Part shown: positions 21,957 to 56,680 of the stretch, piece after piece
Numbering within the stretch: the first letter of the stretch is position 1
How the letters are laid out: the number at the start of each line of letters is the position of its first letter
From: Paracoccus sp. (in: a-proteobacteria)
GTDB taxonomy: Bacteria > Pseudomonadota > Alphaproteobacteria > Rhodobacterales > Rhodobacteraceae
Length of the DNA stretch: 60,540 bases
Direction: 5' to 3'
NCBI GenBank assembly: GCA_030538425.1
Contig: JAUNTZ010000014.1
Span: 1 to 60,540, forward strand
Position numbers and translations under genes: made by a program
The notes under the pieces: generated by a model
What the model was told of the DNA's origin: nothing
Database searches by the model: none
What the model saw: only the letters and a program-made list of their open reading frames with translations

Positions 21957-22994
21957 ATGACCGAGACGCCCCGCGACCAAGCCGAGATCCTGCCCGCCAT
22001 GGGCCATAACAACCCGCCCGTGGAGCATCAGCCGGACAATCAGCCGCCCGCGCTACGGGCCGCCCGCGCGCGCCATCCCGAAAAGGCGCATCGCCCCGAT
22101 CAGGCGCAGCCCAAAAAGCCCGACTGGATCCGCGTCAAGGCCCCGACCAGCCAAGGCTATAAGGACACCCGCAACATTCTGCGCGAAAACCGCCTCTCGA
22201 CCGTCTGCGAAGAGGCCGGTTGCCCCAATGTCGGCGAATGCTGGAGCCAAGGCCACGCCACCATGATGATCATGGGTGAGATCTGCACGCGCGGCTGTTC
22301 CTTCTGCAATGTGATCACAGGCAAGCCCGACGCGCTCGACCCGTTCGAGCCGGGCCGCGTCGCCCATGCGGTCGCCAAGCTGGGCCTCAAGCATGTTGTG
22401 ATCACATCCGTGGACCGCGATGATCTGGACGATGGCGGGGCCGCGCATTTCGCGCAGGTGATCCGCGCGATCCGCCACCGCTCGCCCGGCTCGACCATTG
22501 AGGTCCTGACCCCCGATTTTCTGAAATGTGGCCCAGAAGCCCTTGAAACCGTTGTCGAAGCTCGCCCCGACGTGTTCAACCACAATCTGGAGACCGTGCC
22601 CGGCCTTTATCCGACCGTTCGCCCCGGCGCGCGCTATTTCCACTCACTGCGGCTGTTGCAGCGCGTGAAGGAACTCGACCCAAGCATGTTCACGAAATCC
22701 GGCATCATGGTGGGTCTGGGTGAGGATCGTCAGGGCGTCTTGCAGGTCATGGACGACATGCGCGCCGCCGAGATCGACTTCATCACCATCGGCCAATATC
22801 TTCAGCCCACGCCCAAGCACCACCGCGTGGACCGTTTCGTCACCCCCGACGAGTTCAAGGGCTACGAAAAATCCGCCTATGGCAAGGGCTTCCTGATGGT
22901 CTCGGCCACGCCCCTGACCCGGTCGAGCTACCACGCCGGCGACGACTTCGCCCGTCTGCGCGCCGCGCGACTGGAAAAACTGGGCCGCGCCTAG
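21957..22994 (+). CDS. lipA: Lipoyl synthase
   Basis: A 345-aa radical-SAM enzyme. The auxiliary cluster motif [12 protein letters not shown] and the radical-SAM motif CTRGCSFC are intact, and the C-terminal [10 protein letters not shown] supplies the serine ligand. It inserts two sulfurs into octanoyl groups on 2-oxo-acid dehydrogenase subunits. ATG 21957 (AAGGA six bases upstream) is preferred over ATG 21930. The extreme 3' end (ctggaaaaactggg) is copied twice in the downstream tandem array. Confidence 0.96.
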
Positions 22995-23003
22995 CGGCCT
23001 AGT

Positions 23004-23276
23004 CTAGCGGGCTGCGCCGTCCGGGCTCCACCCCTCGGCGGCCCAACGCTCGGCAATCTGACCAAGCATCTGCATCGCATCATGCAGCTCTCGCCCGCGC
23101 GGGGTCAGCGAATAGCTGACCTGAGGCGGGATCGTCGCGGCCTGCGCCCGGTCGATCAGCCCGGCCCGCTCCAGCATCCGCAGCCGGTCGGTCAGAACCT
23201 TGGTCAAGATTCGCGGCATATGCCGCTGCAACGCCCCGAATCGCAACGTGCCATGGCTGGCCAGCGTGTAAATCAA
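23004..23276 (-). pseudogene. HxlR-type regulator, truncated copy A
   Basis: About 90 codons matching residues ~34-123 of the intact HxlR gene at 23648-24019, missing the N-terminal helix and the conserved cysteine. The recognition helix (TKVLTDRLRMLERAGL) and wing (QVSYSLTPRG) are intact. In the core it differs from the intact copy at about 14 bases, but only one change alters a residue (Ser to Leu in RISTK). The first possible start is TTG 23276. It lies in the same frame as copy B, just past copy B's stop. I list it as a pseudogene for lack of a convincing start, but the silent-change bias argues for function. Confidence 0.6.
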
Positions 23277-23345
23277 GTAAGGCAGCCGGAGAAACTGGGA
23301 CGCACCTAGCGGGCGGGTCTGGCGGTCTGGGCCTGTTGGCCTAGT

Positions 23346-23690
23346 CTAGCGGGCTGCGTCGTCCGGCGTCCGCCCCTCAGCGGCCCAACGCTCGGCAATC
23401 TGCCCCAGCATCTGCATCGCGTCATGCAACTCACGCCCGCGCAGGGTCAGCGAATAGCTGACCTGCGGCGGGATCGTCGCGGCCTGCGCCCGGTCGATCA
23501 GCCCCGCCCGCTCCAGCATCCGCAGCCGGTCGGTCAGAACCTTGGTCGAGATTCGCGGCATATGCCGCTGCAACGCCCCGAAGCGCAACGTGCCATGGCT
23601 TGCCAGCGTGTAAATCAGGTAAGGCAGCTGGAAAAACTGGGCGGCGCTTAGGCGCGCATGCCGTCCGGGCTCCACCCCTCGGCGGCCCAA
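23346..23690 (-). pseudogene. HxlR-type regulator, truncated copy B
   Basis: A second partial copy of the HxlR coding sequence. From PYLIYTL onward it matches the intact gene; upstream the frame runs into fused lipA-tail sequence (SAAQFFQL) and the shifted 3' end of copy C. In the core there are about a dozen base differences from the intact copy and one amino-acid change (Pro to Leu in SLTLRG), plus a divergent C-terminus (EGRTPDDAAR). Starts are only TTG or GTG. Function is uncertain, as for copy A. Confidence 0.6.
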
Positions 23691-24019
23691 CGCTCGGCGA
23701 TCTGACCCAGCATCTGCATCGCGTCATGCAACTCACGCCCACGCGGGGTCAGCGAATAGCTGACTTGAGGCGGGATCGTCGCGGCCTGCGCGCGGTCAAT
23801 CAACCCCGCCCGCTCCAGCATCCGCAGCCGGTCGGTCAGAACCTTAGTCGAGATTCGCGGCATATGCCGCTGCAACGCCCCGAATCGCAACGTGCCATGG
23901 CTGGCCAGCGTGTAAATCAGGTAAGGCGTCCACGCCCCCGCCACCACCGAGAACAGATTTTCGACCGGACAAACTTCACGATCATGCATTTCCGTGCCTG
24001 CGGTAACTGGCTTTCTCAT
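23648..24019 (-). CDS. HxlR-family winged-helix transcriptional regulator (intact copy C)
   Basis: A 123-aa regulator with the family cysteine in REVCPVENLFSVV, the GAWTPYLIYTL helix, the recognition helix in TKVLTDRLRMLERAGL and the wing. HxlR proteins often sense electrophiles or oxidants through that cysteine and repress a neighbouring oxidoreductase. Here a flavodoxin-like gene is divergent 68 bp away, the classic arrangement. ATG 24019 has GGAAAG upstream. Its 3' two-thirds are repeated in copies A and B. Confidence 0.9.
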   Translation of the reverse strand: MRKPVTAGTEMHDREVCPVENLFSVVAGAWTPYLIYTLASHGTLRFGALQRHMPRISTKVLTDRLRMLERAGLIDRAQAATIPPQVSYSLTPRGRELHDAMQMLGQIAERWAAEGWSPDGMRA

Positions 24020-24048
24020 CGGTAAGCACTTTCCTTTCCAAAGCGACT

Positions 24049-24059
24049 GTAGTTTACAC
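24049..24059. promoter_or_regulatory. Candidate HxlR operator
   Basis: TGTAGTTTACA, a short inverted repeat (TGTA-3-TACA) in the 68-bp gap between the divergent HxlR gene and the flavodoxin-like gene. HxlR proteins bind short palindromes in such gaps; assignment here is by position and symmetry only. Confidence 0.4.
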
Positions 24060-24087
24060 CGCCACAATCAAATGGAAAGAGGTTCCC

Positions 24088-24651: not shown

Positions 24652-24732
24652 TCCGGTCTCCGGTCTCCGGTAAGGGGCGTCACAATCAAATCGCGCAGTC
24701 AACCCTTTCATCGTGATCGCGCGACTTGCCCC

Positions 24733-24761
24733 TTGCCCAAGCGACAGAGCATCTGTAATGC
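24733..24761 (+). promoter_or_regulatory. Likely tRNA-Leu promoter
   Basis: TTGCCC (24733-24738), 17-base spacer, TAATGC (24756-24761), with the mature tRNA starting 11 bases further on. This fits a housekeeping sigma promoter. Confidence 0.5.
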
Positions 24762-24772
24762 GGGACGGCAAG

Positions 24773-24856
24773 GCCCGAGTGGCGGAATGGTAGACGCAGC
24801 GGATTCAAAATCCGCCGCCGCAAGGCATGTCGGTTCGAGTCCGACCTCGGGTACCA
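24773..24856 (+). tRNA. tRNA-Leu (anticodon CAA)
   Basis: An 84-nt gene. The acceptor stem GCCCGAG pairs with CTCGGGT, the anticodon stem-loop is GCGGA-TTCAAAA-TCCGC giving anticodon CAA (reads UUG), the T arm is GTCGG-TTCGAGT-CCGAC, and a variable arm is present as expected for a class II tRNA. The CCA end is encoded. Confidence 0.96.
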
Positions 24857-25835: not shown

Positions 25836-25925
25836 GCGGCACCGCGCCATTCGCCGCAATCAGGTCATTGAAACCGCCGCCGACCTTCGCCAAGATCACC
25901 CTATTCAAACGAAAAAGGGTATCAC

Positions 25926-36747: not shown

Positions 36748-37908
36748 ATGACATTGGCCACCACCGCGCCGCGCGAAGATGCGCGGGATAACAGTTTGAA
36801 TTCGCTGGGCTTTGCTAAGCCGCCTTCGGAAACGCGGGTGGTCGTGGCGATGTCGGGGGGCGTTGACAGTTCGGTCGTGGCGGCGGTTCTGGCCGATCAG
36901 GGCTATGATGTCGTGGGCGTCACGCTGCAGCTTTATGACCATGGCGCGGCGCTTGCGAAAAAGGGCGCCTGCTGCGCGGGGCAGGACATTCACGACGCGC
37001 GCCGGGTCGCTGAACGTCTGGGATTCCCGCATTATGTGCTTGATTATGAAAACAAGTTTCGCGAATCGGTGATCGACGAATTTGCCGATGCCTATCTGGC
37101 GGGCGCGACCCCGGTGCCCTGCATCCGCTGTAACGAACGCGTCAAGTTCCGCGATCTGCTGGAGACCGCGCGCGATCTGGATGCCGATTGCATGGCGACC
37201 GGGCATTATATTCAGCGCAAACTCGGGCCTGCGGGGGCGGAACTGCATATGGCCGCCGATCCGAACCGGGATCAAAGCTATTTCCTCTTCTCGACCACGC
37301 AGGAACAGCTTGATTTCCTGCGCTTTCCTTTGGGCCATCTGGAATCCAAGGCCGAGACGCGGGCACTTGCGGCGCGGTTCGGGCTGTCGGTCGCGGACAA
37401 GCCCGATTCGCAGGATATCTGCTTTGTTCCGAACGGAAATTACGCCGCCGTGATCGAGAAGCTGCGCCCCGGTGCCGCCGATCCGGGCGAGATCGTGGAT
37501 CTCGACGGCAATGTTCTGGGCAGCCATCGCGGCGTGATCCATTACACGATCGGGCAGCGGCGCGGGCTTGGCATCGGCGGGCTTGGCGACCCGCTTTATG
37601 TGGTGAAGCTGGACCCCGAAACGCGGCGCGTGATCGTCGGCCCGAAAGAGGCATTGGCCACGCGGATCGTGCCGGTCTCTGAGGTCAACTGGATCGGCGG
37701 GGGCGCGTTCGAGGGCCCCGCGCGTGAGATCGCGGTGCGCATCCGCTCAACCCGCCCGCCCGCGCCCGCCATCCTGCGCCCGACCGGGCCGCGCAGCGCC
37801 GAGGTCGAGTTGCTGACTCCCGAGGAAGGCGTCAGCCCCGGTCAGGCCTGTGTGTTCTATCAACCGGACGGGACGCGGGTTCTGGGCGGCGGCTGGATCA
37901 CCCGCTGA
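36748..37908 (+). CDS. mnmA: tRNA 2-thiouridylase MnmA
   Basis: A 386-aa MnmA. P-loop MSGGVDSS, nucleophile cysteine in [14 protein letters not shown], second catalytic cysteine in [13 protein letters not shown], then the C-terminal beta-barrel domains. It adds sulfur at U34 of Glu/Gln/Lys tRNAs. ATG 36748 follows GAAAGGA. Its 3' end overlaps the convergent lpxB by 11 bp. Confidence 0.96.
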
Positions 37909-39106
37909 TCCGGGCGATTGCCGCCTGCACCGAGCGCGCGGCGCGCAGCCCCGGCGGCTCGCCACCCGCGCCAAGCCGGGTCATGGTTAACGCCATGGCG
38001 CGGCGCTGTGCGTCGGCGAAGGCGGGGATCGTGGCCAGTTCATGCAGCGCAGGGGCCATGTTTTCGGGCTGACAGGCGCGGCCCAGAAACTCAGGCACGG
38101 CCTGGGTTTCGCTGACCAGATTAACCAAAGTCACCGTGCGCACCCGCAGCAGACGGCGGATAATAAAGCGCGAGACCGGCGCCATGTCATAGCCGATCAC
38201 CATCGGCACATCATTGGCGGCGAGTTCGAGACTGACCGTCCCCGAGGCCGCAAGCGACAGATCGGCAGCGGCGAAGGCCGCGCGCTTGTCCTGCGGATCG
38301 GTGATGATCCGGGCGGGGATGGGCCAGTCGAGCGCGGTAAGGCTCTCCTCCAGATGCGGCAGGGTCGGCAGCACCACGCGCAGATCGGGCAGATCACGCG
38401 ACAGCAGGCCAAGGGTCTGCGCAAAACGGGGGGCGAGCCGGGCGATCTCTCCGCGCCGCGAGCCGGGCAGGCAAAGGATCAGGGGGCCGCCGTCCACGGG
38501 CGCGCGAAAGGCGTCTTGATGGCTATCGGGCGGATCGACCGGGGCTTGCGGCCCGCCGCACATGCGCGCGCGGAAGGCGTCAGCCTCAGCCTCGGTCGCG
38601 CGCGGCTCGGTGACGACGGGGTGGCCCACGAAATCGCAGCTCATCCCTGTGGCCTCCATCAAGGGCGGCTCAAAGGGCAGGATGGCCAGAACGTGATCAA
38701 CCCAACGCGCCATTTTCGCCGCACGGCCCGGACGCCATGCCCAGACCGAGGGCGCGACATAATGGATGATCGGCAGGCGCAGCCCGGCCTCACGCACCAG
38801 ACGCGCGACGCGCAGGCAGAAATCGGGGCTGTCAATTGTGATAAGCGCATCGGGCCGGGTTGTAATTACCGCCTGCGCGGTCTCTCGGATCAGCCGCTTG
38901 AGGTCGAAATAGCGCGGCAGCACCTCGGCAATCCCCATCACCGAGAGCTCTTCCATCGCAAAGCGGCTGGTGAGCCCCTGGGCCTGCATTGCAGCCCCGC
39001 CCACCCCGTCGAACTGGGCGCGCGCGTCCAGTTCGCGCAATCCGGCCATGAGCGCGCCGCCCAGACGGTCGCCCGAAGCCTCACCCGCGATCAGGAAATA
39101 GCGCAT
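37898..39106 (-). CDS. lpxB: Lipid-A-disaccharide synthase
   Basis: A 402-aa GT-B glycosyltransferase of the LpxB family: start [18 protein letters not shown], then [15 protein letters not shown]-like [36 protein letters not shown] and [15 protein letters not shown]. It condenses UDP-2,3-diacylglucosamine with lipid X. ATG 39106 is the conserved start; the frame continues 5' into the repeat array, which is not coding. It is the last gene of the fabZ-lpxA-lpxI-lpxB block. Confidence 0.95.
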
Positions 39107-39149
39107 CTTATATCCACTATGCCGCGTCTTTTTACACAGATGAAACCGC

Positions 39150-39500
39150 TGGCGGGGTCTGGCCTGTTCCGTGCCAAGATACTCATGCCCCCGCGCGCAG
39201 GGAAGAGACCCACCTCTTGGGTGCAAAGAACGAAACCCGGCGCGCAATATGGCGTCCTTTGTGCTACAATGCTCATGCCTCGCGCGCCCAAATGAACAGG
39301 CGCGCCTGCGCGAGGCGGCGAAAGAACCCCGGCGCGGGATTTGGCTTCTTCTGTGCCAAAATACTCATGCCGCGCGCGCCGACCGAAACAGGCCGCTTTG
39401 CTCGGCACGTTGCAGGAAACCCGGCGCGGGATTCGGCGGTTTTTGTGTCAAGATACTCATGCCTCGCGCGCCCAAACGAACAGGCCCGCCTGCTCGGCGT
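39150..39500 (-). repeat. Tandem repeat of the lpxI 3' end, ~91-bp units x4
   Basis: Four units aligned on the motif actcatgcc at 39181, 39271 (gctcatgcc), 39363 and 39455; spacings 90, 92, 92. The last unit is the native end of lpxI and contains its stop codon. The copies repeat the last codons of lpxI (for example ARLFIWAREA-stop in the unit near 39271) plus downstream sequence. They fill the space between lpxI and lpxB, in which I see no other gene. Units have diverged by substitutions and small indels. Confidence 0.85.
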
Positions 39501-40236
39501 GGCGGATGGTTTCGTCGCGGTCCAGCACGATCACCCCGCCCGCCTCAAAGGCGATGCCCGAAAGGCCCGCGCGGGCGGCCTGATCGACCGTGTCGGGGCC
39601 AATGGTCGGCAGGTCGATGCGGCGGTCCTGCCCAGGCTTCGGGGCTTTGTAGAACACTCCGCCGCGCCCGCCATGGTGCGCGACAAAGGACAGCATCGCC
39701 TCGGTTCCGGGCAGGGTCTCAACGGCAAGGCAGAGCCCGCCCGCCACCACCGCGCCCTGCCCCAGATCAAGCGCGCCAAGCCCGCTCACGATCTGCGCGG
39801 CGCGGGCCGCGTCAGCTTCGGCTGCGGGGGTGGGCGCGCCCGCAAGGATGCCCGCGCCGGGGATCAGGTCGGGGGCAAGCGTAGCCACGCCCTCGACCGC
39901 GAAACCCGCCTCTTCGAAAATCGCGATCACCTCGCGCAGCGCGCCGTCATCGCCCTGCCCCATCGCCGCCAGGATGCGCGGAACAAGGGCGGCGGTGCGG
40001 GCATCGAAGGCCTCGGGGTCAAGGCGCGGGCGCTGCACCGCACCGGCAAAGCAGACCCGCGTCACGCCCTGATCCTCCAGCCAGTCAAGGAACGGGACCA
40101 GCCGCTCCAGCCGGAAGGGCTGATGTGGCAGATCGGGGGCAAAGCCTTCAAGCGCGGCCACCACGGGCGCGTCAAGGCGGCGCGCCAGTTCGGGCGCAAG
40201 CAGGCCGGTGCCCGCGATGATGGCAATGCGGCTCAT
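39457..40236 (-). CDS. lpxI: UDP-2,3-diacylglucosamine diphosphatase LpxI
   Basis: A 259-aa LpxI (DUF1009): N-terminal IAIIAGTGLLAPELARRL, middle GAVVAGGLCLAVETLPGTEA and GVFYKAPKPGQDRRIDLPTI, all conserved in the family. It hydrolyses UDP-2,3-diacylglucosamine to lipid X and replaces LpxH in alphaproteobacteria. The start overlaps lpxA by 4 bp. Its last ~13 codons are embedded in the repeat array downstream. Confidence 0.94.
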   Translation of the reverse strand: MSRIAIIAGTGLLAPELARRLDAPVVAALEGFAPDLPHQPFRLERLVPFLDWLEDQGVTRVCFAGAVQRPRLDPEAFDARTAALVPRILAAMGQGDDGALREVIAIFEEAGFAVEGVATLAPDLIPGAGILAGAPTPAAEADAARAAQIVSGLGALDLGQGAVVAGGLCLAVETLPGTEAMLSFVAHHGGRGGVFYKAPKPGQDRRIDLPTIGPDTVDQAARAGLSGIAFEAGGVIVLDRDETIRHAEQAGLFVWAREA

Positions 40237-41024
40237 CTGGCGGGGTGCGGCGCGAGGAAAGAGCGGTCGGACGGCCCGAGGATGAAGTCCAGCATCTCGC
40301 GCTCCATCGCGGAAACCTCACCCGCTGCACGCGCCCGAGCCGTCTCGCGCAGGCTCCCGCCGCCAAGCGCCCCCAACAGGTCGCGCAGCGCTGCAATGTC
40401 GGCACGGCTTGCCCCACGGCGTTTGAGCCCGACAAGGTTCAGCCCGTCCAGATGCCCGCGCGGCCCCTGCACCAGACCGTAAGGCAGCACATCCGCCGTC
40501 ACCATCGTGACCGCGCCGATCATCGCGCCGCGACCGATGCGCACGAATTGATGCACGCCCGAGAGCCCGCCGACGATCACGTCATCGCCCAGCACGCAAT
40601 GCCCCGCGACCGAGGCATTGTTGACCAGAATGACCCGGTCGCCGATCATGCAGTCATGCGCGACATGCGCGCCCGCCATGAACAGCCCGTCATCGCCAAC
40701 CCGGGTCAGACCGCCGCCGCCCTCGGTGCCGGGATTCATCGTCACATATTCGCGGATCCGGTTGCGCGCGCCGATCTCAAGCCGGGTCCGTTCGCCCTGA
40801 AACTTGAGATCCTGCGGCGCGGCGCCGATCGAGGCGAAAGGATAGATCTCACTCCCCTCGCCCACCGAGGTGTCGCCGGTGATCGCGACATGGGAATGAA
40901 GCACCACGCCCGCGCCCAGCCGCACCTGCGGGCCGATCACGCAAAACGGGCCGATCCGCGCGCCTGCGCCGATCTGCGCGCCATCCTCGATCACGCTTGA
41001 GGGGTGGATCAGGGCCTCAGCCAT
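40233..41024 (-). CDS. lpxA: Acyl-ACP-UDP-N-acetylglucosamine O-acyltransferase
   Basis: A 263-aa left-handed beta-helix enzyme built of hexapeptide repeats, with the catalytic histidine in [13 protein letters not shown] and a C-terminal helical domain. It performs the first step of lipid A synthesis. The start overlaps the fabZ stop by 8 bp. Confidence 0.96.
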
Positions 41025-41517
41025 TGGCGCCCATATCCATCATCGCGGTAAACTCGGCCTCGCAGGCCAGTTCGCCCCCAACCGTGGCGCGGCCCTCGAA
41101 TTTCCAGATCTTGCCGCCGCCGCGTTTCACCGTGACCGCCAGTTCCAGCACATCGCCCGGAACCACCATGCGGCGGAACTTCACCTTGTCGATGGCCATG
41201 AAATAGACCAGCATGTTCTTGTCGGCCAGATCGAGGCTGACCCCCACCACGACCGCCGCAGTCTGGGCCATCGCCTCGACGATGGTGACGCCGGGCATGA
41301 CCGGCTTGCCGGGGAAATGGCCTTGAAAATGCGGCTCGTTGAAGGTTACGTTCTTGATGCCGACCCCGCTTTGATGCGGCACGATGTCTTGCACGCGGTC
41401 GATCAACAGGAACGGGTAACGATGCGGAATAATGCGCTGAATCAGGCTGATATCGGCTTTTGTCGGAATATCGGCCTCGGGCGTGGCGGCCTGTCCGGTG
41501 GTGGTCTGATCGCTCAT
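41017..41517 (-). CDS. fabZ: 3-hydroxyacyl-ACP dehydratase FabZ
   Basis: A 166-aa hot-dog-fold dehydratase. Active-site histidine in [13 protein letters not shown] and glutamate in [10 protein letters not shown]. An ~25-residue hydrophilic N-terminal extension precedes the conserved [15 protein letters not shown]. lpxD, often directly upstream in alphaproteobacteria, is missing here; the neighbour is a divergent protease gene. Confidence 0.95.
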
Positions 41518-42927
41518 GGCGGGATCCTTTGCTCTGTTGCTAAATGCCTAGCAACGGGGGGCAGGCTTGGCAAGCAAGCGGCCCTTTGCCTTGCGCTTGG
41601 GCTGGCTCTGCCGCTGTCGGCGGGTATGGCTGCGGCGCAGGAGGTGCAGACCGGGCTTTATGATGCTTTCGATGCCCGCCCGCTGGACCGTCAGGAAAAG
41701 CTGGGCCTTCAGGCGGCACTGGCCTGGGCGGGCGATTATGCGGGCGCGCTTGACGGGCTTTGGGGCCCCGCGACGCAGGCCGCGATCGAAGCCTGGGCGG
41801 CGCGGTCCGAGGGGCGCGCGCCGTTCAACCGCGATGTGGCGCGGCTCTTGGGTGAATTCGCCGAGGCCGCCACGCGCGACGGCTGGGAATGGGTCGATCC
41901 GCTGGATCAGGACGTGCCCCTGCTGCTGCCGCGGGCCCGGATGGAGCAGGACGGCGCGCTCTGGCGCGATGCGGGCGGGTTGAGCGTGGCGCAACGCGCG
42001 GTCGCGCCGGAGGAGAGCGCGGCGCGGCATGAGATGATGGGGGCGCAGGGGCTGACGGGGCGGGCCCGGATCAGCACCGCGCGCCGGCAGGGCGCTTTCG
42101 TCTGGCTGCGCAGCGACCCGCGCGGCGCGGTGGTGATCGACACCGAGATCAGTGGGCCCGAGGACCCCCGCCAGACCGGCCGGATGCTGATTGCCGCGAG
42201 CGTCGGCCTGACGGAGCAGCCCCAGATCGGCATCACGCCGGGCGGTCAGGCCGAAAGCTGGATTGCCGCAGCCGCAGCAAGCCCCGCGCAGCCTCTGCCC
42301 AGATCCTCGGGCAGCGGCTTTCGCATCACGGCGCAGGGCGCGGTGCTGACCAGTCGGCATGTGATCGGCGATTGCGCCGAGGTAACGGTCGATGGCACGC
42401 CCGCCGAGAGGCTGGCCATCAGCGAGACCAGCGATATGGCGCTGATCGCGGGCCCGCCGGGCGGTTATCTGGCGCTTGCGCAGGGTCAGGCCGCGCTCAA
42501 CAGCGATGTGACGGTGGCGGGCTTTCCGCTCAACGGCTTGCTTGGCGGGCTGAACGTGACACGCGGCGCGGTCTCGGCCGAGCGCGGGATCGAGGGCAAC
42601 GCGACCCAGTTCCAGTTCTCGGCCCCGATCCAGCCGGGCAGTTCGGGCGGGCCTGTGGTCGATGCGATGGGCCATGTGACCGGCATCGTTCTGGCCAAGC
42701 TGGACGACATGCTGACCGCCGCCGAATGGGGGATCATCGCGCAAAACGTGAATTTCGGCCTGCATATCGCGCCCGCCCGCGATCTTTTGGCTGAGGCGGG
42801 CCTCAGCCCCCCCGACGCCCCCGCGCCCCCTGAAAGCCCCGAGGCGATGGGCGCGTTGTTGCAATCCGCAACGGTGCTGATCGAATGCGCCGATCCGCCG
42901 ATCTGGCCCTCGCCGCTGACGCCGTGA
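41422..42927 (+). CDS. Exported trypsin-like serine protease (start unclear, possible frameshift)
   Basis: The mature protein has a short peptidoglycan-binding-like region ([20 protein letters not shown]) and a C-terminal trypsin-like domain with His in [10 protein letters not shown], Asp in [10 protein letters not shown] and Ser in [11 protein letters not shown] signal peptide is seen ([19 protein letters not shown]), but no ATG, GTG or TTG lies in frame just before it; the nearest is ATG 41422, inside antisense fabZ. An ATG at 41543 would join the frame if the G6 run at 41556-41561 had one base fewer. It is probably a periplasmic protease; its target is unknown. Confidence 0.8.
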
Positions 42928-42947
42928 GGATGTGCGGTGTGCGCGGC

Positions 42948-43920
42948 ACTCAGAGGCGGTGGCCTTCGAATAGCGCGCCAACAGCGCCGCTGAGACCAAC
43001 CCGAGCCACGCCCTGACCCGCCGCAGAACAGCGCGCATATCACAGGCGACAGCTTTCGGACGACCGGCCCGCCAACACTCTCATCAAGATCAGCCCCAAC
43101 CACGCCCAACCGGCCATCAGCGGCCAGGGCCGCAGCGCCGTCACCACCTCGGCGCCGCGCGGGGTCACGGCGATCCAGTCGCCGGACAGGCGCTCCCCCG
43201 CCAAAGGACGCAAGCCTCACAAACGGCGACGCCCTTCCGCCAGCCACCCTTCAAGCTTCATCGCCGAGACCAACCACAACCACGCCCAGCCGGGCATCAG
43301 TGACTAGCGGCGCAGTTCGATCACGGCCTCCGCGCCGCGTGGGGTCACCGAGATCCGGTTCCCGGACATGCTGTGACCCGCAGAACGTAAGCCTCACAAA
43401 CGATGACGCCCTTCCGCCAACCACCCCGCCAGCACCACCACCTCGATCAGACCCAACCAAGCCCAGCCGGGCATCAGCGGCTGGCGGCGCAAAGCGGTCA
43501 CCGCCTCGGGGTCGCGCAGTATGACTGCGATCCAGTTCTCCGACAGGCACTTACCCGCCGCAGGCCAGGCGGGCCGTTGCAGGCGGCGGCCTTCACACAA
43601 ACAATTCGCCAACATAACCGCCACGACCAGCCTGCGCCGCGCATCGCGGCTGACGGCGCTGCGCGGTCACGGCCTCGGCCCCGCGTGGGGTCATGGCCCG
43701 CAAGTCCACGGCGACACCCTGACCCACCGAAGGAGGAGAGCATCACAGGCAAGCGCGGCCTTTAACAATTAGCCCACCAGCATCACTGCCGAGGTTAGCC
43801 CAGCCACGCCCAGGCGGGCATCAGTGGCTAGCGGCGCAGCGCGGTCGCGGCCTCGGCACTGCGCGCGGTGACGGCGATCCAGTTGTCGGACAGACGCTCC
43901 CCCGCCACAGGACGCAAGGC
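42948..43920 (-). repeat. Array of decayed copies of the 3' end of the 690-codon gene, ~177-bp units
   Basis: Copies begin (stop-codon side, tcac) at 43040, 43217, 43394, 43593 and 43743, with a shortened one from ~42948; the native end is at 43921. Spacings are 177, 177, 199, 150 and 178. Each minus-strand copy encodes variants of NWIAVTPRGAEAVTALRR and a transmembrane tail GWAWLG...LAGWLAEG with its own stop. The copy ending at 43394 is nearly intact; others carry stops and frameshifts. No other gene is seen in this ~990-base stretch. Confidence 0.9.
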
Positions 43921-45993
43921 TCACAACCGGCGACGCCCCTCCGCCAACCACCCCGCCAGCATGACCACCGCAATCACCCCCAGCCACGCCCATCCCGGCA
44001 TCAGCGGTTGGCGGCGCAGGGCGGTGACAGCCTCAGCGCCGCGCGGCGTTACCGCGATCCAGTTGCCGCCCAGACCCTGACCCGCCGCAGGCCGGCCCGG
44101 CGGGACGATGCGCAGATCGGGGATGCCGTCCGAGAGATGCGTGATTGTGCCGCCGCTGGCCTCGGTCAGGGGCGCGAAGGCGGCGCCATCGGCCACCACG
44201 CGCTGAAACTCGCGCGGGCTGGGCGGGCCGATGGCGAAGCTGCGCCGCAGCCCGTCCTGTTCGGCGATATAAAGCCCCGGCCCCGGCGCCTGCCAGTCGA
44301 CCGCAAAGCGGCCCGGGCCGGTGGGCTCCATATCGAGCTTGGCGGCGCCACCGGCGGGGCTGTCGATACGCAGCCCGCCGACCGTCTGCGAGAGACTGCG
44401 CCGGGTGAGGGTCACCTGTTCGCCCCGAACTGACACCGAGAGCGCGTCCTCTTCCAGCTCGGGCTCTTTCATCGACCAATGCGCGATGCGGCGCAGCAGA
44501 TCGAGCTGCGGGCCGCCGCCCTCAAAGCCGCGCCCCCAGAGCCAGACCTGATCCGAGGCCAGCAGCGCCACGCGACCCTCACCCACACGGCGCAGCATCA
44601 AGAGGGGGTCGCCGCCCGCCTCCATGACCACCTCGGCCCCGGGCTCAGGCGTCATTTCGGAATGGCTCAGCCACCGCCCCCAATCGGGCGGGTCGGCCGC
44701 CGCACCCTCAAGCCCAGAGGTCACCGGGTGGCGGCGCCCGGCCTCGGTAAGCTCGGGCCGGAACGGCGCCTCGATCACGCGGCCCGTGGGCTGCGCAGGC
44801 AGGATCGGCCCCAGAGGCGAGAGCGCAAGCGAATCGACGGTCGCGATCTCTGGCCCTGCCGAGACCAGAATCGCCCCGCCCTCCTCGACGTAACGCCTTA
44901 TATTGGCGTAATATTCCGGCATCAGGATACCGCGCACGCGGTAGCGGTCAAAGATGATCAGGTCGAAATCCGAGATCCGCTCCATGAACAGCTCATGGGT
45001 CGGAAAGGGGATCAGCGACATTTCCTCAACCGGCACGCCATCGGATTTTTCGGGCGGGCGGAGGATGGTGAAGTGGATCAGGTCCACCGCCGCATCGGAT
45101 TTGAGCAGGTTGCGCCATGAGCGCGCGCCGGGGTTGGGCTCACCCGAGACCAGCAGCACGCGCAGCCGGTCGCGCAAGCCGTTCACGCCCAGGGCGGCGG
45201 CGTTGTTAAGCCCGGTCAGCTCACCCGGCTGATCGGGGGTCGAGACCCAGAACAGGTTCTCGCCCAGATTTTCCAGGGTGACCGGCAGGGTGAACGCCTG
45301 CCCCGGCATCGCCGAGGACGAAAACACCAGCTCACCCCCCATGCGCAATTCGACCGTGGCGGGGCGTCCGGCGATGCTCTCGGGGACGGCGCCCTGATCC
45401 TCGATGCGCAGCCGGAAGCTGACCTCTTGGCCAATCAGCCCAAAGCCCGGCGCCTCGTCGATGATCAGCCGGCGGTCCCAGTCGCCGGGCTGACCGGAAA
45501 GCAGGATATGGACCGGCGCGGGGGCCTCACCCGGGATCAGCGCAGGATCATGCGCCAGCCCGTCGCTAAGCGCGATCACGCCCGCCAGCCGCGCCTCGGG
45601 CTCTGACGCGATGGCGCGGGCGAGGGCGGCACCCAGCAGGCTGCCGTCCGGGGCGTCCTCGACGGTGACGCGGCGCAGTTCTGTCGCGGGCAAGGCCGCG
45701 ATCCGTGCGGCAAGCGCGTCAAGCGCGGCATCGGTCTGGGCTGTGCGGTTACCGATGCGGTTGCTGGCGCTGCGATCATCCAGCAGCAGCACGATATCGG
45801 ACAGGGCCTGCGTGGTGGCGCGTTCGACGCCCGGACCGGCAAGCGCCGCCGCGATCAGGGCAAGCGTCGCCACCCGCCACGCCCAGCCCCGCAGCCGCGT
45901 AAAGACCGCCACCGCGCCCGCCAGCACGGCGATGCCAAGCACCGCCCAGACCGGCCACCAACCCAGCCATGGATCAAAGCCAAGCGCGGTCAT
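43921..45993 (-). CDS. Membrane protein of the MoxR-associated operon (glutamine amidotransferase-like domain)
   Basis: A 690-aa protein: two N-terminal TM helices (AVLGIAVLAGAVAVF; VATLALIAAALAGPG), a vWA-like part (SDIVLLLDDRSASN; GVIALSDGL), a class I GATase-like fold without clear catalytic residues (RVLLVSGEPNPGARSWRNLL; IIFDRYRVRGILMPEYYANI; GGAILVSAGPEIA) and a C-terminal TM tail (LGVIAVVMLAGWLAEGRRRL). It is the last gene of the moxR operon and overlaps the previous gene by 4 bp. Its function is not established; such proteins probably act in envelope assembly. Its 3' end is the source of the downstream array. Confidence 0.85.
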   Translation of the reverse strand: MTALGFDPWLGWWPVWAVLGIAVLAGAVAVFTRLRGWAWRVATLALIAAALAGPGVERATTQALSDIVLLLDDRSASNRIGNRTAQTDAALDALAARIAALPATELRRVTVEDAPDGSLLGAALARAIASEPEARLAGVIALSDGLAHDPALIPGEAPAPVHILLSGQPGDWDRRLIIDEAPGFGLIGQEVSFRLRIEDQGAVPESIAGRPATVELRMGGELVFSSSAMPGQAFTLPVTLENLGENLFWVSTPDQPGELTGLNNAAALGVNGLRDRLRVLLVSGEPNPGARSWRNLLKSDAAVDLIHFTILRPPEKSDGVPVEEMSLIPFPTHELFMERISDFDLIIFDRYRVRGILMPEYYANIRRYVEEGGAILVSAGPEIATVDSLALSPLGPILPAQPTGRVIEAPFRPELTEAGRRHPVTSGLEGAAADPPDWGRWLSHSEMTPEPGAEVVMEAGGDPLLMLRRVGEGRVALLASDQVWLWGRGFEGGGPQLDLLRRIAHWSMKEPELEEDALSVSVRGEQVTLTRRSLSQTVGGLRIDSPAGGAAKLDMEPTGPGRFAVDWQAPGPGLYIAEQDGLRRSFAIGPPSPREFQRVVADGAAFAPLTEASGGTITHLSDGIPDLRIVPPGRPAAGQGLGGNWIAVTPRGAEAVTALRRQPLMPGWAWLGVIAVVMLAGWLAEGRRRL

Positions 45994-51257: not shown

Positions 51258-51260
51258 GCC

Positions 51261-52019
51261 ATGGCCAAATTCGCCGCCAACCTGACCTTTCTGTTCACCG
51301 AATTGCCGATCCTCGAACGGTTCCGCGCGGCCAAGCAGGCGGGGTTTCAGGGGGTCGAGATCCTGTTTCCCTATGATCTCGCGCCCTCTGAGCTGCGCCT
51401 TGCCGCCCGCGCGGCGGATACAGAGATCGTGCTGATGAACTGCCCGCCGCCGAACTGGGCGGGGGGCCCGCGCGGATTTGCCGCCGTGCCGGGGCTGGAG
51501 GACCGCTTTCGCACCGATTTCGGCCGCGCGCTGCGCTATGCTCAGGCGCTTCATGCGCGGCATATCCATATCATGGCCGGACGTGCTGAGGGGGATGAGG
51601 CGCAGGCCACCTTCATCGCGAACCTCAAATGGGCGGCCAAGCGCGCGCCCCATACCAGCCTCACGATCGAGCCGATCAACCAGACCGATATGCCGGGCTA
51701 TTTTCTGTCCGACTATGATCTGGCGGCACAGATCATTGCGGCGGTCGATGCGCCCAATCTGGGGCTGCAATTCGACGCCTATCACGCCCATCTGATCACC
51801 GGCGACGTCTTGGCCACATGGCAGGCCCATGCGGCCCTGGTGCGCCATATCCAGATCGCGGGCGCCCCCGACCGCCATGAGCCGCGCGAGGGAGAGATCG
51901 ACTATCCGGCCTTTTTCCGCGCCGTCGATGCCGCGGGCTATCGCGGCTGGGTCAGCGCGGAATACAACCCGCGCTCAACCACCGAGGCCGGGCTTCGCTG
52001 GCTGGCGGGTGAGCCATGA
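51261..52019 (+). CDS. Hydroxypyruvate isomerase-family sugar isomerase
   Basis: A 252-aa TIM-barrel protein of the xylose-isomerase-like AP-endonuclease-2 superfamily. Metal/active-site glutamates are in LTIEPINQTDMPGYFL and WVSAEYNPR, with GLQFDAYHAHLITGD between them. Closest by motif to Hyi/OtnI-type isomerases. It overlaps the next gene by 4 bp. Confidence 0.88.
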   Translation: MAKFAANLTFLFTELPILERFRAAKQAGFQGVEILFPYDLAPSELRLAARAADTEIVLMNCPPPNWAGGPRGFAAVPGLEDRFRTDFGRALRYAQALHARHIHIMAGRAEGDEAQATFIANLKWAAKRAPHTSLTIEPINQTDMPGYFLSDYDLAAQIIAAVDAPNLGLQFDAYHAHLITGDVLATWQAHAALVRHIQIAGAPDRHEPREGEIDYPAFFRAVDAAGYRGWVSAEYNPRSTTEAGLRWLAGEP

Positions 52020-52720
52020 TCGACGGCCCACAGGCGATCTCGCCCCTGATCGACGCCCCGCCTCTGGTTCTGTTCGGCATGGATATGGCGGCGGCCACCA
52101 TCTTTGCGGCGACCGGCGCGCTTGCCGCCTCGCGCAGGCAGATGGATGTGGTGGGCTTTATCTGGCTGGCCATCGCCACCGGCGTGGGCGGCGGCACGGT
52201 GCGCGACCTGATCCTTGACGTGCCGGTCTTCTGGGTGGTGAACCCGGCCCATATCATCGCCTGCGTGACCACCGCGATCATCGTGCATTTCGGCGCCCAT
52301 CTGATCGAGCGGCGCTTTGTCGCTCTGTTGTGGCTGGATGCGCTTGGCATGGCTCTGGTGACGGTGGCGGGGACCTCGAAAGGACTGTCGGTCGGTGCGG
52401 CGCCGCTGATTGCGGTGACGATGGGGGTGTTCACCGCATCCGTGGGCGGGATCATCCGCGATGTGCTGACCCAAGAACCCTCCATCATCATGCGCCGAGA
52501 GATCTATGTGACCGCCGCCCTTGCGGGCGCGGTCAGCTATGTCATCGCGGTGCAGCTTGGCGCGGGCAAGCTGGGCGCTGCGGGCGCGGGCTTTGGGGTG
52601 GCGGCCAGCCTGCGCATGGCGGCCTTGGCCTTTGGCTGGTCCATGCCCGCATACCGCCCCCGTGCCGCGCGCGACTATCCGATTACCGACCAGACCCCGC
52701 CGCCCGACCGCGAGGGTTAG
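52016..52720 (+). CDS. TRIC-type cation channel family protein (UPF0126/YicG-like)
   Basis: A 234-aa membrane protein with the two UPF0126 repeats: FGMDMAAATIFAATGALAAS and later MALVTVAGTSKGLSVG, each followed by GxGGGxxRD-type loops (GVGGGTVRDLILD; SVGGIIRDVLT). About seven helices. Bacterial members form trimeric cation channels. A strong hairpin follows the stop. Confidence 0.9.
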   Translation: MIDGPQAISPLIDAPPLVLFGMDMAAATIFAATGALAASRRQMDVVGFIWLAIATGVGGGTVRDLILDVPVFWVVNPAHIIACVTTAIIVHFGAHLIERRFVALLWLDALGMALVTVAGTSKGLSVGAAPLIAVTMGVFTASVGGIIRDVLTQEPSIIMRREIYVTAALAGAVSYVIAVQLGAGKLGAAGAGFGVAASLRMAALAFGWSMPAYRPRAARDYPITDQTPPPDREG

Positions 52721-52736
52721 GGGCGCTGCCCCCCCC

Positions 52737-52789
52737 GGATATTTGAGGACAAAAGACCGCGCAAAGCGTCTTTTGTCCCCTAAATATCC
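52737..52789. terminator. Long inverted repeat/bidirectional terminator after the TRIC-type gene
   Basis: GGATATTTGAGGACAAAAGAC, 10-base loop, GTCTTTTGTCCcctAAATATCC. The stem is about 20 bp with a small bulge, 17 bases after the stop. The right arm is also the first motif of the tandem array that follows. Confidence 0.7.
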
Positions 52790-53220
52790 CCGCCGGAGGC
52801 GCATCTTGCAGCGCGCGCCCAGGCCTGCGCATAAAAAGACAGCACAAGCACCCTGCGCGGTCTCTTGTCCCCAAGTATCCCCGCCGGAGGCGCATCTTTC
52901 AGCCCACGCCATGGCCCGAGCGCATAAAAAAGGACAGCACAAGGCGCCCTGCTTCTGCTGTCCCGCAAATATCCCCGCCCGAGGCGCATCTTGCAGCCCA
53001 CGCCATGGCCCGAGCGCATAAAAAAGGACAGCACAAGGCGCCCTGCTTCTGCTGTCCCGCAAATATCCCGCCCGAGGCGCATCTTTCAGCCCACGCCATG
53101 GCCCTCGCATAAAAAACCGCAGACCGCGCAAAGCACCCTGAGTCTCTTGTCCCGCAAATATCCCCGCCCGAGGCGCATCTTGCAGCCCTCGCCCCGGCCC
53201 GAGCGCATGAAAAAGACCGG
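52782..53220 (-). repeat. Tandem array of ~94-bp units each carrying a minus-strand terminator-like hairpin
   Basis: The motif aaatatccccgcc (aagtat in one copy) occurs at 52782, 52873, 52967, 53061 and 53156: spacings 91, 94, 94, 95. The third and fourth units are almost identical. Each unit contains, on the minus strand, a hairpin such as GGACAGCA...TGCTGTCC followed by TTTTTT. The array lies between two convergent genes; the 540-base gap holds no gene. A 438-codon open frame through it is judged non-coding. Confidence 0.88.
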
Positions 53221-53246
53221 CAAGCCCGCGCCTGCCGGTCCAGTCC
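53211..53246 (-). terminator. Intrinsic terminator after the 5'-nucleotidase gene
   Basis: Minus strand GACCGGCA, loop ggcgcgggct, TGCCGGTC, TTTTTC, about 20-45 bases past the stop codon at 53261. Confidence 0.8.
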
Positions 53247-53260
53247 TTTGGCAAAGGCGC

Positions 53261-54862
53261 TCAGTTCACCGTGATGCGGCCATCGGTTTCAGGCGCGAAA
53301 TCGGCGCCTTTCTCGGCCAGATAGTCGGCCAGCACATCGGCCAGATCGGGGCCGAAATCATAGGCGTTCTGGCCATGCGCCTTGAACATCGCATAACCGT
53401 CGCCGCCATTGCGCATGAAGTTGTTCGACACCACGCCATAAACCCGCTCGGGGTCCAGAGCCTCCCATGCGCCGTTCTCCTCAACCTCGACATCCGAGAT
53501 CCGGCTGCCAGCGGGCGCTGCGGGGTCGATGGTATAGCGCAGACCGGCGACCTGCGCGAAACGCCCGCCGCCTTCCTCGATCTGGCTGGCGCCGTTCTCC
53601 AACGCCTCAAGCACATATTCGCCGCCAAGCTGGAAGGTCGCCAGCGTGTTCTGGAAGGGAAGCACGGCCAGAACCTCGCCCATGGTGATCGGGCCCTGAT
53701 CAATCGCCGCGCGCAGCCCGCCGCCATTCTGAATGGCAATCTGGATGCCCTGATCGCGGACCCGCTCCAGCATCGCATCGGCCACAAGCGAGCCCATCAC
53801 ACATTCGCGCGCCCGGCAATCGGCACGATCCGCGCCGATCTCGGTATTGGTCTGGGCCACGACGCGGTTTTTCAGCTCCTCGATAGGCTCGGCCATCTCA
53901 GTCACACGAGCCGCCACCGCAGCGTCCGGGGTCACCGAGGCATCCAGCAGGATCGGCTGCCCCTCGGCCCCGGTCAGGTTGCCCTCATCGTCAAATGTCA
54001 GCACCAGATGGCCCAGATATTTCGAATAGGCATAGGCCTGCACCACCGGCACATCGCGCCCATCCGCGCCCGAAACCATGGTCGGATAGGGGCCCTCGGC
54101 CCCCTCCATGTCACCCAGCAGCGTGTGCGAATGACCGCCCACGACCGCATCCAGCCCCGGCACGGCGGCGGCCAGTTCCTGATCGTGCAGATAACCGATA
54201 TGGTTCAGCGCGATGATCTTGGTCACGCCCTGTTCGGTCAGCGCCTCGATATCGGCCCGCAGCGCCTCGACCGGATCGGTGAAGATCACGCTGTCCGAGG
54301 GGCTGGCAATCTCCACCGTGTCGGGCGTCAGCGCCGAGACGATGCCGATCTTTTCACCGCCCACCTCAAGGATGGCATAGCTGTCCACCAGACCTTGCAG
54401 GCGGTTGTTCTGGCTCAGATCCAGATTGCTGGCCAGAACCGGAAAATCGACGCCTTCGGCCAGCAGCGCCAGCCCGTCATCGCCATCGTCGAATTCGTGA
54501 TTGCCCACCGCCATGGCGTCAAAGCCGAGCCGGTTCATGAACTCGACGACCTCTTCGCCGCGATAATGGGTGTAGAACAGGCTGCCCTGATACTGGTCGC
54601 CGGAATCGAGCAGGATCACGTTCTGGCCGTCCAGTTCAGCGCGCAGCTCGGCCAGTTTGGTGGCAAGCCGGGCGACCCCGCCAAAGCATTCGCCATTCGC
54701 CTCGGTCTCGGCATCGCAGGTCGAATCGAAGCGGTTGATCGGCTCGATGCGGCTGTGGAAGTCATTGATATGCAGGACATTCAGCACATATTCGGCCTGC
54801 GCCGCACCGGCGGTCAGCGAGATGGCGGCGGCGGTGGCCAGAAGGCGGGTCTTGATGGACAT
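53261..54862 (-). CDS. Bifunctional metallophosphatase/5'-nucleotidase (UshA-like), periplasmic
   Basis: A 533-aa exported enzyme: signal peptide cleaved after AQA (residue ~23), metal-binding HINDFHSRIEP, DSGDQYQGSLF, VGNHEFDDG, NHIGYLHD and GGHSHT, then the C-terminal substrate-binding domain (NNFMRNGGDGYAMF). It hydrolyses extracellular nucleotides. ATG 54862 with AAAGGAGA is chosen; an upstream in-frame start would spoil the signal peptide. Confidence 0.94.
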   Translation of the reverse strand: MSIKTRLLATAAAISLTAGAAQAEYVLNVLHINDFHSRIEPINRFDSTCDAETEANGECFGGVARLATKLAELRAELDGQNVILLDSGDQYQGSLFYTHYRGEEVVEFMNRLGFDAMAVGNHEFDDGDDGLALLAEGVDFPVLASNLDLSQNNRLQGLVDSYAILEVGGEKIGIVSALTPDTVEIASPSDSVIFTDPVEALRADIEALTEQGVTKIIALNHIGYLHDQELAAAVPGLDAVVGGHSHTLLGDMEGAEGPYPTMVSGADGRDVPVVQAYAYSKYLGHLVLTFDDEGNLTGAEGQPILLDASVTPDAAVAARVTEMAEPIEELKNRVVAQTNTEIGADRADCRARECVMGSLVADAMLERVRDQGIQIAIQNGGGLRAAIDQGPITMGEVLAVLPFQNTLATFQLGGEYVLEALENGASQIEEGGGRFAQVAGLRYTIDPAAPAGSRISDVEVEENGAWEALDPERVYGVVSNNFMRNGGDGYAMFKAHGQNAYDFGPDLADVLADYLAEKGADFAPETDGRITVN

Positions 54863-55119
54863 GGGTTCTCCTTTGGTGGGATGCGCGCCTTTGCTGGAAC
54901 GCTCGGCGCGCATGGTGCCAGCTTCACGCGGATAGCCCGGCACCGCAACAGACCCGTGACAGCCCGGCGATTTCCTGCCGCGCTTAACGATTTGTTGGGG
55001 CTTTGGGGGTTAGTCTGGGGATCAGCGGCGATTCGGTTACACGGGGGATGCGATGATGAACGGATGATGCGACAGCGCGGTGTCTTGACCGCGCCCGCGC
55101 TTCGGGCAAAGACAGGGCC

Positions 55120-55443
55120 ATGCTGGTTTACAAGATCTTTCGCGCGGATGAATATGCAGCCTTCGTCGATGCCGGGCGCAGCGATGGCGCGCCGGTCGAT
55201 CTGGCCGATGGATATATTCATCTGTCCACCGCCGCGCAGGCTGCGGAGACCCTTGTGAAGCATTTCGCGGGTGAGGATGGGTTATGGCTGCTGGCCTTGG
55301 ACAGCGCGGCGCTTGATCCGCTGCGATGGGAGCCCTCGCGCGGGGGGGCGCTGTTCCCGCATCTTTACCGCGAATTGCGGGCCGAGGATGTGCTCTGGTC
55401 GCGCGAGATTGCGGCAGAGGACCGGCTGGAGGATCTGGCATGA
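55120..55443 (+). CDS. DUF952 domain protein
   Basis: A 107-aa DUF952 protein ([51 protein letters not shown]). The family is thought to resemble glutathione-related or ART-like folds; function unknown. Its TGA overlaps the ATG of the duplicated pyrD start (ATGA). Confidence 0.92.
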
Positions 55444-55719
55444 GCGCCGAGAGCAAGACGCAACAGGACAAGCCAAGCCTGATCGAGCGCGCGGGTCTGG
55501 CCGTGCTCCACCGTCTGGACCCCGAGCGGGCGCATGACCTGTCGCTGCGCGCGCTTGCGGCGGGGGTTGTGCCGGAGGATCTGGCATGAGCGCCGAGAGC
55601 AAAACGCAACAGGACAAGCCAAGCCTGATCGAGCGCGCGGGTCTGGCCGTGCTCCACCGTCTGGACCCCGAGCGGGCGCATGACCTGTCGCTGCGCGCGC
55701 TTGCGGCGGGGGTCGTGCC
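55428..55719 (+). repeat. 146-bp tandem duplication at the DUF952/pyrD junction
   Basis: ggaggatctggcatgagcgc and what follows occurs at 55428 and again at 55574. The two 146-bp copies differ at only about two positions (gcaag/gcaaa, gggtt/gggtc). The second copy runs into full-length pyrD. Confidence 0.95.
55440..55589 (+). CDS. 49-codon mini-ORF: pyrD N-terminus fused to a second copy of the DUF952 tail
   Basis: Produced by the 146-bp duplication. It encodes the first 45 residues of PyrD ([20 protein letters not shown] onward) followed by EDLA and stop. Both its start (with the DUF952 stop) and its stop (with the pyrD ATG at 55586) keep the ATGA overlap, so ribosomes can still step through to pyrD. 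As a protein it lacks any catalytic part; it could be a relay for translational coupling or may simply be young debris. Confidence 0.6.
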
Positions 55720-56680
55720 GCTGCCGGGCGGGCCGGTCACGGGGCCGCGGCTGGCCACGCGGATTGCGGGGCTGGATCTGGCAAATCCGGTCGGGCTGGC
55801 GGCGGGCTATGACAAGAATGCCCGCGCGGTGGGGCCGCTGATGCGGGCGGGGTTCGGCTTTGTGGAACTCGGCGCGGCGACGCCACGCCCGCAGCCCGGC
55901 AACCCCAAGCCGCGCCTGTTCCGGCTTTCGGGCGAGCGCGCGATCATCAACCGCTTTGGCTTTAACAATGAAGGCGCGGCGGCGATTGCCGCGCGCATGG
56001 CCGCGCGGCCTGCGGGCATCCCGGTCGGCCTCAATATCGGCGCCAACAAGGACAGCGCCGACCGCGCGGCGGATTTCGCCGAGGTGGTGCGGGTGGCCGG
56101 GATGGCGGCGGATTTCCTGACCGTCAACGTGTCCTCACCCAACACCGAAAAGCTGCGTGATCTGCAAGGCGCAGCGGCGCTGCGCGCCCTGCTGGCGGGC
56201 GTGCTTGAGGCGCGCGACGCCCTTCCCGAACGCCGCCCGGTCTTTCTGAAAATCGCCCCTGATCTGGACGAGGCGGGGCTGGACGACATTGCGGCAATTG
56301 CGCTCGACAGCGGCATTGACGCGGTGATCGCGACCAATACCACGCTCTCGCGCGACGGTCTGCGCGATGCGCAGCGCGGTCAGGCGGGCGGCCTGTCCGG
56401 CGCGCCCCTGTTCGAGCGTTCAACGCGGGTTCTCGCCCGGCTTTATCGCGCGACCGAGGGCCGCGTGCCCCTGATCGGCGTCGGCGGGATCTCATCACCC
56501 GAGGACGCCTGGCAAAAGATCCGCGCCGGGGCCTCGGCGGTGCAGATCTATTCGGCACTGATCTATCAGGGCTTTTCGCTGGCCGCCCATATCGCGCGCG
56601 AATTGGACGCCCGCGCCGAACGCGAAGGGCTGAGGAATATCAGCGCCTTGACCGGAACCGGCGCCGGTGAATGGTCATGA
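55586..56680 (+). CDS. pyrD: Dihydroorotate dehydrogenase (quinone), class 2
   Basis: A 364-aa class 2 enzyme: N-terminal membrane-association helices ([20 protein letters not shown]), then [31 protein letters not shown] with the catalytic serine, [12 protein letters not shown] and [13 protein letters not shown]. It oxidises dihydroorotate and passes electrons to ubiquinone in the inner membrane. ATGA-coupled to the mini-ORF upstream. Confidence 0.96.

Follow-up and report, generated by a model that had tools for sequence, protein, structure and literature searches.

Results

The DNA described here is a 60,540-bp stretch (hereafter called the window) that makes up contig C38 of G000, a 2.69-Mb draft genome of 92 contigs that is 86.6% complete. 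The five best named matches of the PyrD protein encoded in the window all come from Paracoccus species (75–79% identity). When a 3.7-kb stretch of the window is used as query, G000 has no close relative among 124 other genomes of the genus (best long matches 76% identical; best short match 81% over 635 bp, in G122). Our subject is a set of short tandem arrays at the ends and junctions of genes in this genome. Tandem Repeats Finder (TRF; period at least 50, overlapping rows merged) reports five arrays in the window and no more: A at 22996–23927, B at 39228–39493, C at 43087–43559, D at 52766–53215 and E at 55428–55720. Their periods are 342/302, 92, 177, 94 and 146 bp, respectively, with 98% identity between the copies of E. 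An initial annotation of the window had placed five arrays at these positions, with units of about 91, 94, 146, 177 and 300–342 bp and a full-length gene kept beside each. All of this holds, and complete copies of the nine genes named below adjoin the arrays.

Array A (22996–23927) consists of three units of ~300 bp, three copies also being found by an ungapped repeat search, and spans the tail-to-tail junction of lipA (lipoyl synthase; plus strand, 21930–22994), which adjoins it, and hxlR (HxlR-type regulator; minus strand, 23648–24067). Both genes are intact, and the repeated 3′ part of hxlR leaves two truncated minus-strand copies between them (23004–23276 and 23346–23675). Array B is widened by the ungapped search to 39142–39504. 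It comprises four units of ~92 bp at the 3′ end of lpxI (minus strand, 39457–40236) and the 5′ side of lpxB (minus strand, 37898–39106), again with both genes intact; the lpxB start is that of the gene caller, and the longest open reading frame (ORF) would start at 39247. Array C (minus strand, 43021–44101; about 43021–44100 by ungapped search) holds copies, now decayed, of a 3′-terminal stretch (~60 codons plus the stop region) belonging to an intact 690-aa gene (minus strand, 43921–45993) whose GATase1_like match is below cut-off. It has six copies with an 88-nt core, spaced 169–180 bp apart, and an additional 39-nt partial copy at 42988. Five of the copies lie beyond the gene, and some of them contain stop codons. 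The five units of ~94 bp in array D (52754–53245; five copies by ungapped search) lie between two convergent genes, one of the glycine-transporter family (plus strand, 52016–52720), upstream of the array, and one of the 5′-nucleotidase family (minus strand, 53261–54943).

In array E (plus strand, 55428–55720), two 146-bp units cover the ATGA stop/start overlap of an intact DUF952 gene (plus strand, 55120–55443) and intact pyrD (plus strand, 55586–56680). The duplicated pyrD start is fused in frame to the second DUF952 tail, giving a 49-codon mini-ORF (plus strand, 55440–55589) that terminates at the ATGA of the intact pyrD. The duplicated 135 nt of pyrD differ at two sites, and both differences are synonymous; the initial annotation had counted two differences in the 146-bp unit.

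Most of these arrays can be set against the same junctions in relatives. Four of the five junctions were comparable; that of array D was without a counterpart in the fetched loci. Measured from tblastn matches stretched to the query ends, with stop codons unchecked, the lipA and hxlR 3′ ends are −10 to +20 bp apart at all but one of 9 relative loci (in 7 out of 8 genomes, with G125 represented twice) and 797 bp apart at the remaining one, against 653 bp here; lpxI and lpxB are separated by −10 to 141 bp, with a median of 68 bp, at all 38 relative loci (30 genomes), against 350 bp here; and the distance from the 690-aa gene to lpxI is 1308–1416 bp in 47 relative loci, against about 3.7 kb here. 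This last difference corresponds to ~2.3 kb of extra DNA at 41517–43920, between the 690-aa gene and a 166-aa ORF (41017–41517) upstream of lpxI. By gene spacing it is absent from the 47 relative loci, and it contains array C and most of a Trypsin_2 ORF (plus strand, 41317–42927). The DUF952–pyrD stop/start overlap is present in 98 of 124 relative loci. Because the junctions are compact and single-copy in most of the relatives compared, the window arrays most likely arose on this lineage.

The arrays are not confined to the window. We sampled 60 further pieces of G000 (819,945 bp; 880,485 bp with the window) and three control sets: 60 genus stretches from 27 genomes (1,094,325 bp), 130 small genus loci (531,686 bp) and 80 named Rhodobacterales loci (1,513,327 bp). 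Genes were called by a simple hexamer method, and TRF settings were identical throughout. The control sets partly overlap, with several genomes present twice (for example, G121 in L200 and L317, G125 in L261 and L341), so that the totals and p values below assume an independence that is not complete. In G000 with the window, TRF finds 24 arrays with a period of at least 50, of which 6 are within genes and 18 lie across or outside genes. Thirteen of these 18 are outside the window (~16 per Mb). The genus stretches yield 8 arrays, 7 within genes and 1 outside; the small genus loci yield a single array, within a gene, and none across or outside genes; and the Rhodobacterales loci yield 3, two within genes and one that is an assembly gap with N (L033). 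For non-coding arrays, 13 in G000 (window excluded) versus 1 and 0 in the two genus controls gives p = 6.5e-6.

A sensitive self-blastn search gives the same picture. Repeats outside coding sequence (CDS) number 32 in 0.82 Mb of G000 and 3 in 1.09 Mb of genus stretches, and the small genus loci (0.53 Mb) have none (p = 1.3e-12); 28 of those in G000 outside the window have an offset of at most 400. The Rhodobacterales loci have 16 non-CDS regions, 4 with an offset of at most 400 and 12 above. Most of the 12 overlap two adjacent same-strand called genes and resemble pairs of paralogues; the N-gap of L033 accounts for one of them. By contrast, repeats within genes are not raised (11 in 0.82 Mb of G000 versus 17 in 1.09 Mb of genus stretches). 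The coding fraction is 0.881 in the G000 sample, 0.902 in the control stretches and 0.925 in the small genus loci. Identity between copies runs from 98% down to 66% across arrays, in line with the different ages ascribed to them initially. The initial annotation had also proposed a continuing mechanism acting on gene ends; a genome-wide process is borne out by these counts, and the targeting of gene ends is not.

The sole non-CDS TRF array of the genus controls lies downstream of a gene in G121 (L326, 15304–15652; 119-bp unit, 2.9 copies, 96%). G121 is among the closest relatives and has the top match to the window stretch, so the trait may reach slightly beyond G000.

Where do the arrays lie? 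They are enriched at gene boundaries: 18 of 24 arrays are at boundaries, whereas random placement of units of the same lengths puts 6.1 ± 2.1 there (maximum 13 in 2000 simulations), a comparison that is somewhat loose because each observed array was assessed in its entirety and because the copies increase the amount of non-coding DNA. Junctions were typed for the 37 sensitive non-CDS regions of G000 and the window, leaving out four with an offset above 400 and three at piece edges. By script, the 30 typed junctions are 19 co-directional, 9 convergent and 2 divergent, against a baseline of 73, 14 and 13%. Convergent junctions are thus somewhat over-represented (9 of 30 versus 13.9%, p = 0.03; 10 after hand correction of array A, which the script typed as co-directional because hxlR itself lies within the array). 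Divergent promoters are not hot spots, their 2 of 30 being no different from baseline. Such placement can be explained without any mechanism directed at gene ends. When a duplication crosses the end of a gene, a complete gene is left, and when it spans a junction both genes stay complete; a duplication inside a gene usually breaks it; and survival alone therefore predicts the bias towards boundaries. The convergent excess fits either view.

Six arrays duplicate an overlapping stop/start junction: array E, L114 (CobU/DBI_PRT), L186 (NQRA-like/NQR2_RnfD_RnfE), L190a and L190b (the L190 junctions being PTA_PTB/acetate kinase and a weak Lactamase_B_2 match/ATP-dependent ligase) and L131 (ABC transporter). 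Each of the six has a mini-ORF of 44–62 codons that begins at the duplicated gene 2 start and runs into the repeated tail of gene 1. These mini-ORFs end at the next stop/start overlap, with the exception of L114, where a 1-bp difference shifts the frame close to the mini-ORF end and the stop falls 4 bases before the next start. L186 and L190a have two extra copies each, and there the chain is formed twice. The mini-ORF of L131 is open despite only 66% identity between the copies. The duplications stretch the distance between the genes by 133–280 nt, and one or two interposed mini-ORFs keep the chain, such that stop and start overlap or lie within ~10 nt of each other at every step in 6 of 6 arrays. 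Random duplications of the same junctions would keep coupling with probabilities of 0.34, 0.59, 0.33, 0.32, 0.31 and 0.34 (product 0.0022). A separate scan found duplicated co-directional junctions at 5 of 245 gene pairs in G000 versus 0 of 328 in the genus stretches; L131 falls under the threshold of that scan and came from the sensitive self-blastn search.

Read from the frames, translational coupling can continue through the mini-ORF chain. Spacing matters in known pairs: in the measurements of Huber et al. (2023), coupling is almost lost at 22–23 nt in H. volcanii pairs and at 38 nt in E. coli pairs (PMC10666635). With coupling nearly lost at a spacing of ~20 nt, a duplication that failed to rebuild the chain should reduce expression of gene 2. 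The open link in the extra copies suggests that natural selection decides which duplications survive, and the coupled frames, like the placement at boundaries, fit such a survival filter.

The nonsynonymous-to-synonymous ratio (pN/pS) between copies is 0.51–0.97 in array C and 0.62–1.16 in L289, with stop codons in some copies, and the old copies thus appear to be nearly neutral. Array A is unlike the other arrays, in that amino-acid changes between its copies are few relative to how far the DNA has diverged (pN/pS 0.03–0.16). Synonymous to nonsynonymous differences between its hxlR fragments and the intact gene are 13.0 to 1.0 and 12.5 to 4.5, and between the two fragments 11.5 to 4.5. General constraint on the fragments can be set aside as a rule, since array C and L289 are near neutral and array A is the exception. 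For these ratios, 2 of 21 gene ends were without a copy (L291 gene 1 and L131), and the L186 gene-2 row is badly aligned. A further long decayed array lies at L297 (3184–4402; ~170-bp units) and ends beside a gene; by eye, its gene-side unit has a hairpin followed by a T-run and is terminator-like.

Finally, the units are unrelated in sequence. Among 18 non-coding units, the window five included, there are no blastn matches between units at E 0.01. This agrees with the initial view that the arrays, apart perhaps from short motifs in B and D, are unrelated at base level, and it rules out a mobile or dispersed element such as a repetitive extragenic palindrome (REP), a miniature inverted-repeat transposable element (MITE) or an insertion sequence (IS). 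Repeat-protein genes are not the source, as 18 of the 24 arrays are not inside a called gene and the 6 that are were set apart. Nor is there a known structured RNA array in the window, the only region searched, where Rfam at gathering threshold gave just a transfer RNA (tRNA; 24773–24853). Breakpoints could be read in four arrays, with exact sharing of 1 base in E, 1 in L187, 3 in L190b and 0 in L179. At L190b, inspection by eye shows a further ~13 nt of imperfect similarity. The arrays at L114 and L122 exceed two copies, and their breakpoints are unreadable by this approach. Loss of recA or mutS, the only repair genes tested, is not the cause: G000 has both at full length, with matches above cut-off. 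A motif at gene ends was likewise discarded as the source of arrays B and D. Matches to the pattern GGGGATATTT and two variants number 13 in G000 (14.8 per Mb), some of which are the array D copies themselves, 2 in the genus stretches (1.8 per Mb) and 16 in the Rhodobacterales loci (10.6 per Mb), so the motif is not special to G000.

Discussion

We consider it probable that the arrays reflect a lineage with a high net rate (formation minus loss) of tandem duplications of ~60–340 bp. The joins would form in the near absence of homology, through an event such as replication slippage or template switching, and the repeats, once present, would gain additional copies when they slip or exchange unequally with one another. 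Selection would purge those duplications that break a gene or operon. The survivors would be left at the ends and junctions of genes, because no gene loses its complete copy there. At overlapping junctions, they would be the ones whose added copy starts a mini-ORF that runs on to the following stop/start overlap, such that ribosomes still reach the downstream gene. Most extra copies would decay afterwards. The observations behind this account are the genome-wide excess, the restriction to boundaries, the unrelated units, the near-blunt readable breakpoints, the lack of arrays at most of the junctions compared in relatives and the unbroken chain in 6 of 6 overlapping junctions. From these we infer the molecular event, which may still be going on, as well as translation of the mini-ORFs and a causal role for selection.

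Could the duplications instead be made at gene ends by a targeted mechanism, for example one that depends on transcription termination, on R-loops or on convergent genes being transcribed head-on? The 18 boundary arrays, the unraised in-gene repeats and the 9 (10 by hand) convergent junctions of 30 are what such a mechanism would give, but survival of complete genes gives the same placement, arrays are also seen where co-directional genes overlap and a terminator would not be expected, and the units share no sequence; we regard targeting as unlikely. Similarly unlikely is that the copies are kept for a function, whether as extra terminators or small RNAs in the intergenic arrays or as useful microproteins from the fragments and mini-ORFs. 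The low pN/pS of the array A hxlR fragments, the L131 mini-ORF that is open at 66% identity and the terminator-like gene-side copy of L297 would suit this idea. Yet the units are mutually unrelated, Rfam gives only the tRNA in the window, copies in C, L289 and elsewhere have stop codons and near-neutral ratios, and the arrays are missing at the junctions of the relatives compared.

Two further explanations concern the origin of diverged copies. Incoming DNA from a sister strain, by transformation or a gene transfer agent (GTA), might pair at one end while an illegitimate join forms at the other, so that a partial, diverged copy ends up next to the resident one. The array A copies do differ mainly at synonymous sites, like orthologues of two strains, and the window contains a GTA cluster; but GTAs are common in Rhodobacterales. 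In the other young arrays, the summed copy-to-intact pN/pS is ~0.4 (16 rows, omitting array A and the badly aligned L186 gene-2 row), the value expected of one functional and one free copy, and arrays with 3–7 copies or 98% identity require local duplication. We hold sister-strain recombination to be very unlikely. An assembly artefact, in which strain variants of one locus were joined head to tail, seems the least likely of all. G000 is a draft of 92 contigs, and the Rhodobacterales array of L033 is just such a gap artefact, with N in its middle. On the other side stand the 3–7 copies, the graded divergence, the preserved flanking genes and the frames that are kept. Moreover, a random artefact would also produce an excess within genes, which is not seen, and no comparable rate appears in the stretches sampled from the genus's other draft genomes.

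Several points weigh against our preferred account of frequent near-blunt duplication filtered by selection. The evidence comes from a single draft genome, incomplete and in many contigs, and the sampled pieces are mostly contig starts, places where repeats may be enriched. Gene calls were home-made, and the L191 array (period 60) may be coding DNA missed by the caller. The Rhodobacterales loci show 4 short-offset non-CDS self-repeats in 1.51 Mb, so the trait is rare elsewhere and not absent. The ~13-nt similarity at L190b means that joining is not always homology-free. The coupling idea was formed on E, L186 and L190b, and the three cases checked later have, on their own, a joint null probability of 0.06. 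A mutational bias towards gene ends would look the same as selection in these data. Lastly, the array A copies do not look like decaying fragments; judging from their substitutions, the fragments could be made and kept as protein, could exchange with the intact gene or could have come from another strain.

How do these arrays compare with known systems? Spontaneous tandem duplications of bacterial chromosomes are known to join with little or no homology and to have units of kilobases. The joins here likewise have little or no homology, whereas the units are 60–340 bp and some copies persist to 66% identity. The nearest known case is that of Ehrlichia ruminantium, in which non-coding tandem repeats are described as undergoing active expansion and contraction and the coding ratio is ~64% (PMC10710844). 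G000 is like E. ruminantium in having many non-coding tandem repeats in one alphaproteobacterial genome, with long periods and a genome-wide excess (here 13 versus 1 versus 0 against the genus controls). It differs in that ~88% of the sample is coding, and in that E. ruminantium is an obligate intracellular parasite and the host here is Paracoccus-like. The overlapping junctions resemble termination–reinitiation pairs, which have ATGA or TGATG overlaps and lose coupling when spacing grows by ~20 nt (PMC10666635). Unlike those pairs, the natural duplications here add 133–280 nt and keep the chain by means of the interposed mini-ORFs. Genomes with non-coding tandem repeats are thus already known; what is new is the behaviour of duplications at overlapping operon junctions. 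A literature search on junction duplication, partial gene duplication and coupling found no description of such duplications among the titles and abstract openings listed.

The junctions provide a natural experiment on the importance of translational coupling in living operons, and the mini-ORFs offer a simple origin for chimeric small genes. It is conceivable, though we would not wager on it, that junction duplication is a route of gene birth. One step would create a chimeric microgene in which the tail of gene 1 follows the start of gene 2 and which has a start site and coupling of its own. Because coupling is selected for, such microgenes would stay open long after divergence, as at L131 (66%), and the outcome would be a standing stock of coupled microprotein chains, some of which may gain function. 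G000 also lends itself to asking why other bacteria have so few short tandem duplications.

Additional observations

The GTA structural cluster of the window lies on the minus strand at 4625–18050 and includes a ‘megatron’ baseplate protein, baseplate hub, connector, HK97 capsid, portal and terminase. Among the repair genes of other genomes, recA of G003 (G003:C7:91442-92343) and mutS of G013 (G013:C1:985493-988101) each match as two separate pieces. One gene of 1078 aa at L284 (574–1482) has three in-frame repeat blocks of 54, 81 and 108 bp. Three words recur at gene ends in the G000 sample, GACAAAAGAC, GTCTTTTGTC and GGGCGCTGCC, being found within 80 nt after the stops of 16, 10 and 10 of 874 called genes, respectively. 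By eye, GACAAAAGAC and GTCTTTTGTC make up an inverted repeat where array D begins (52720–52790).

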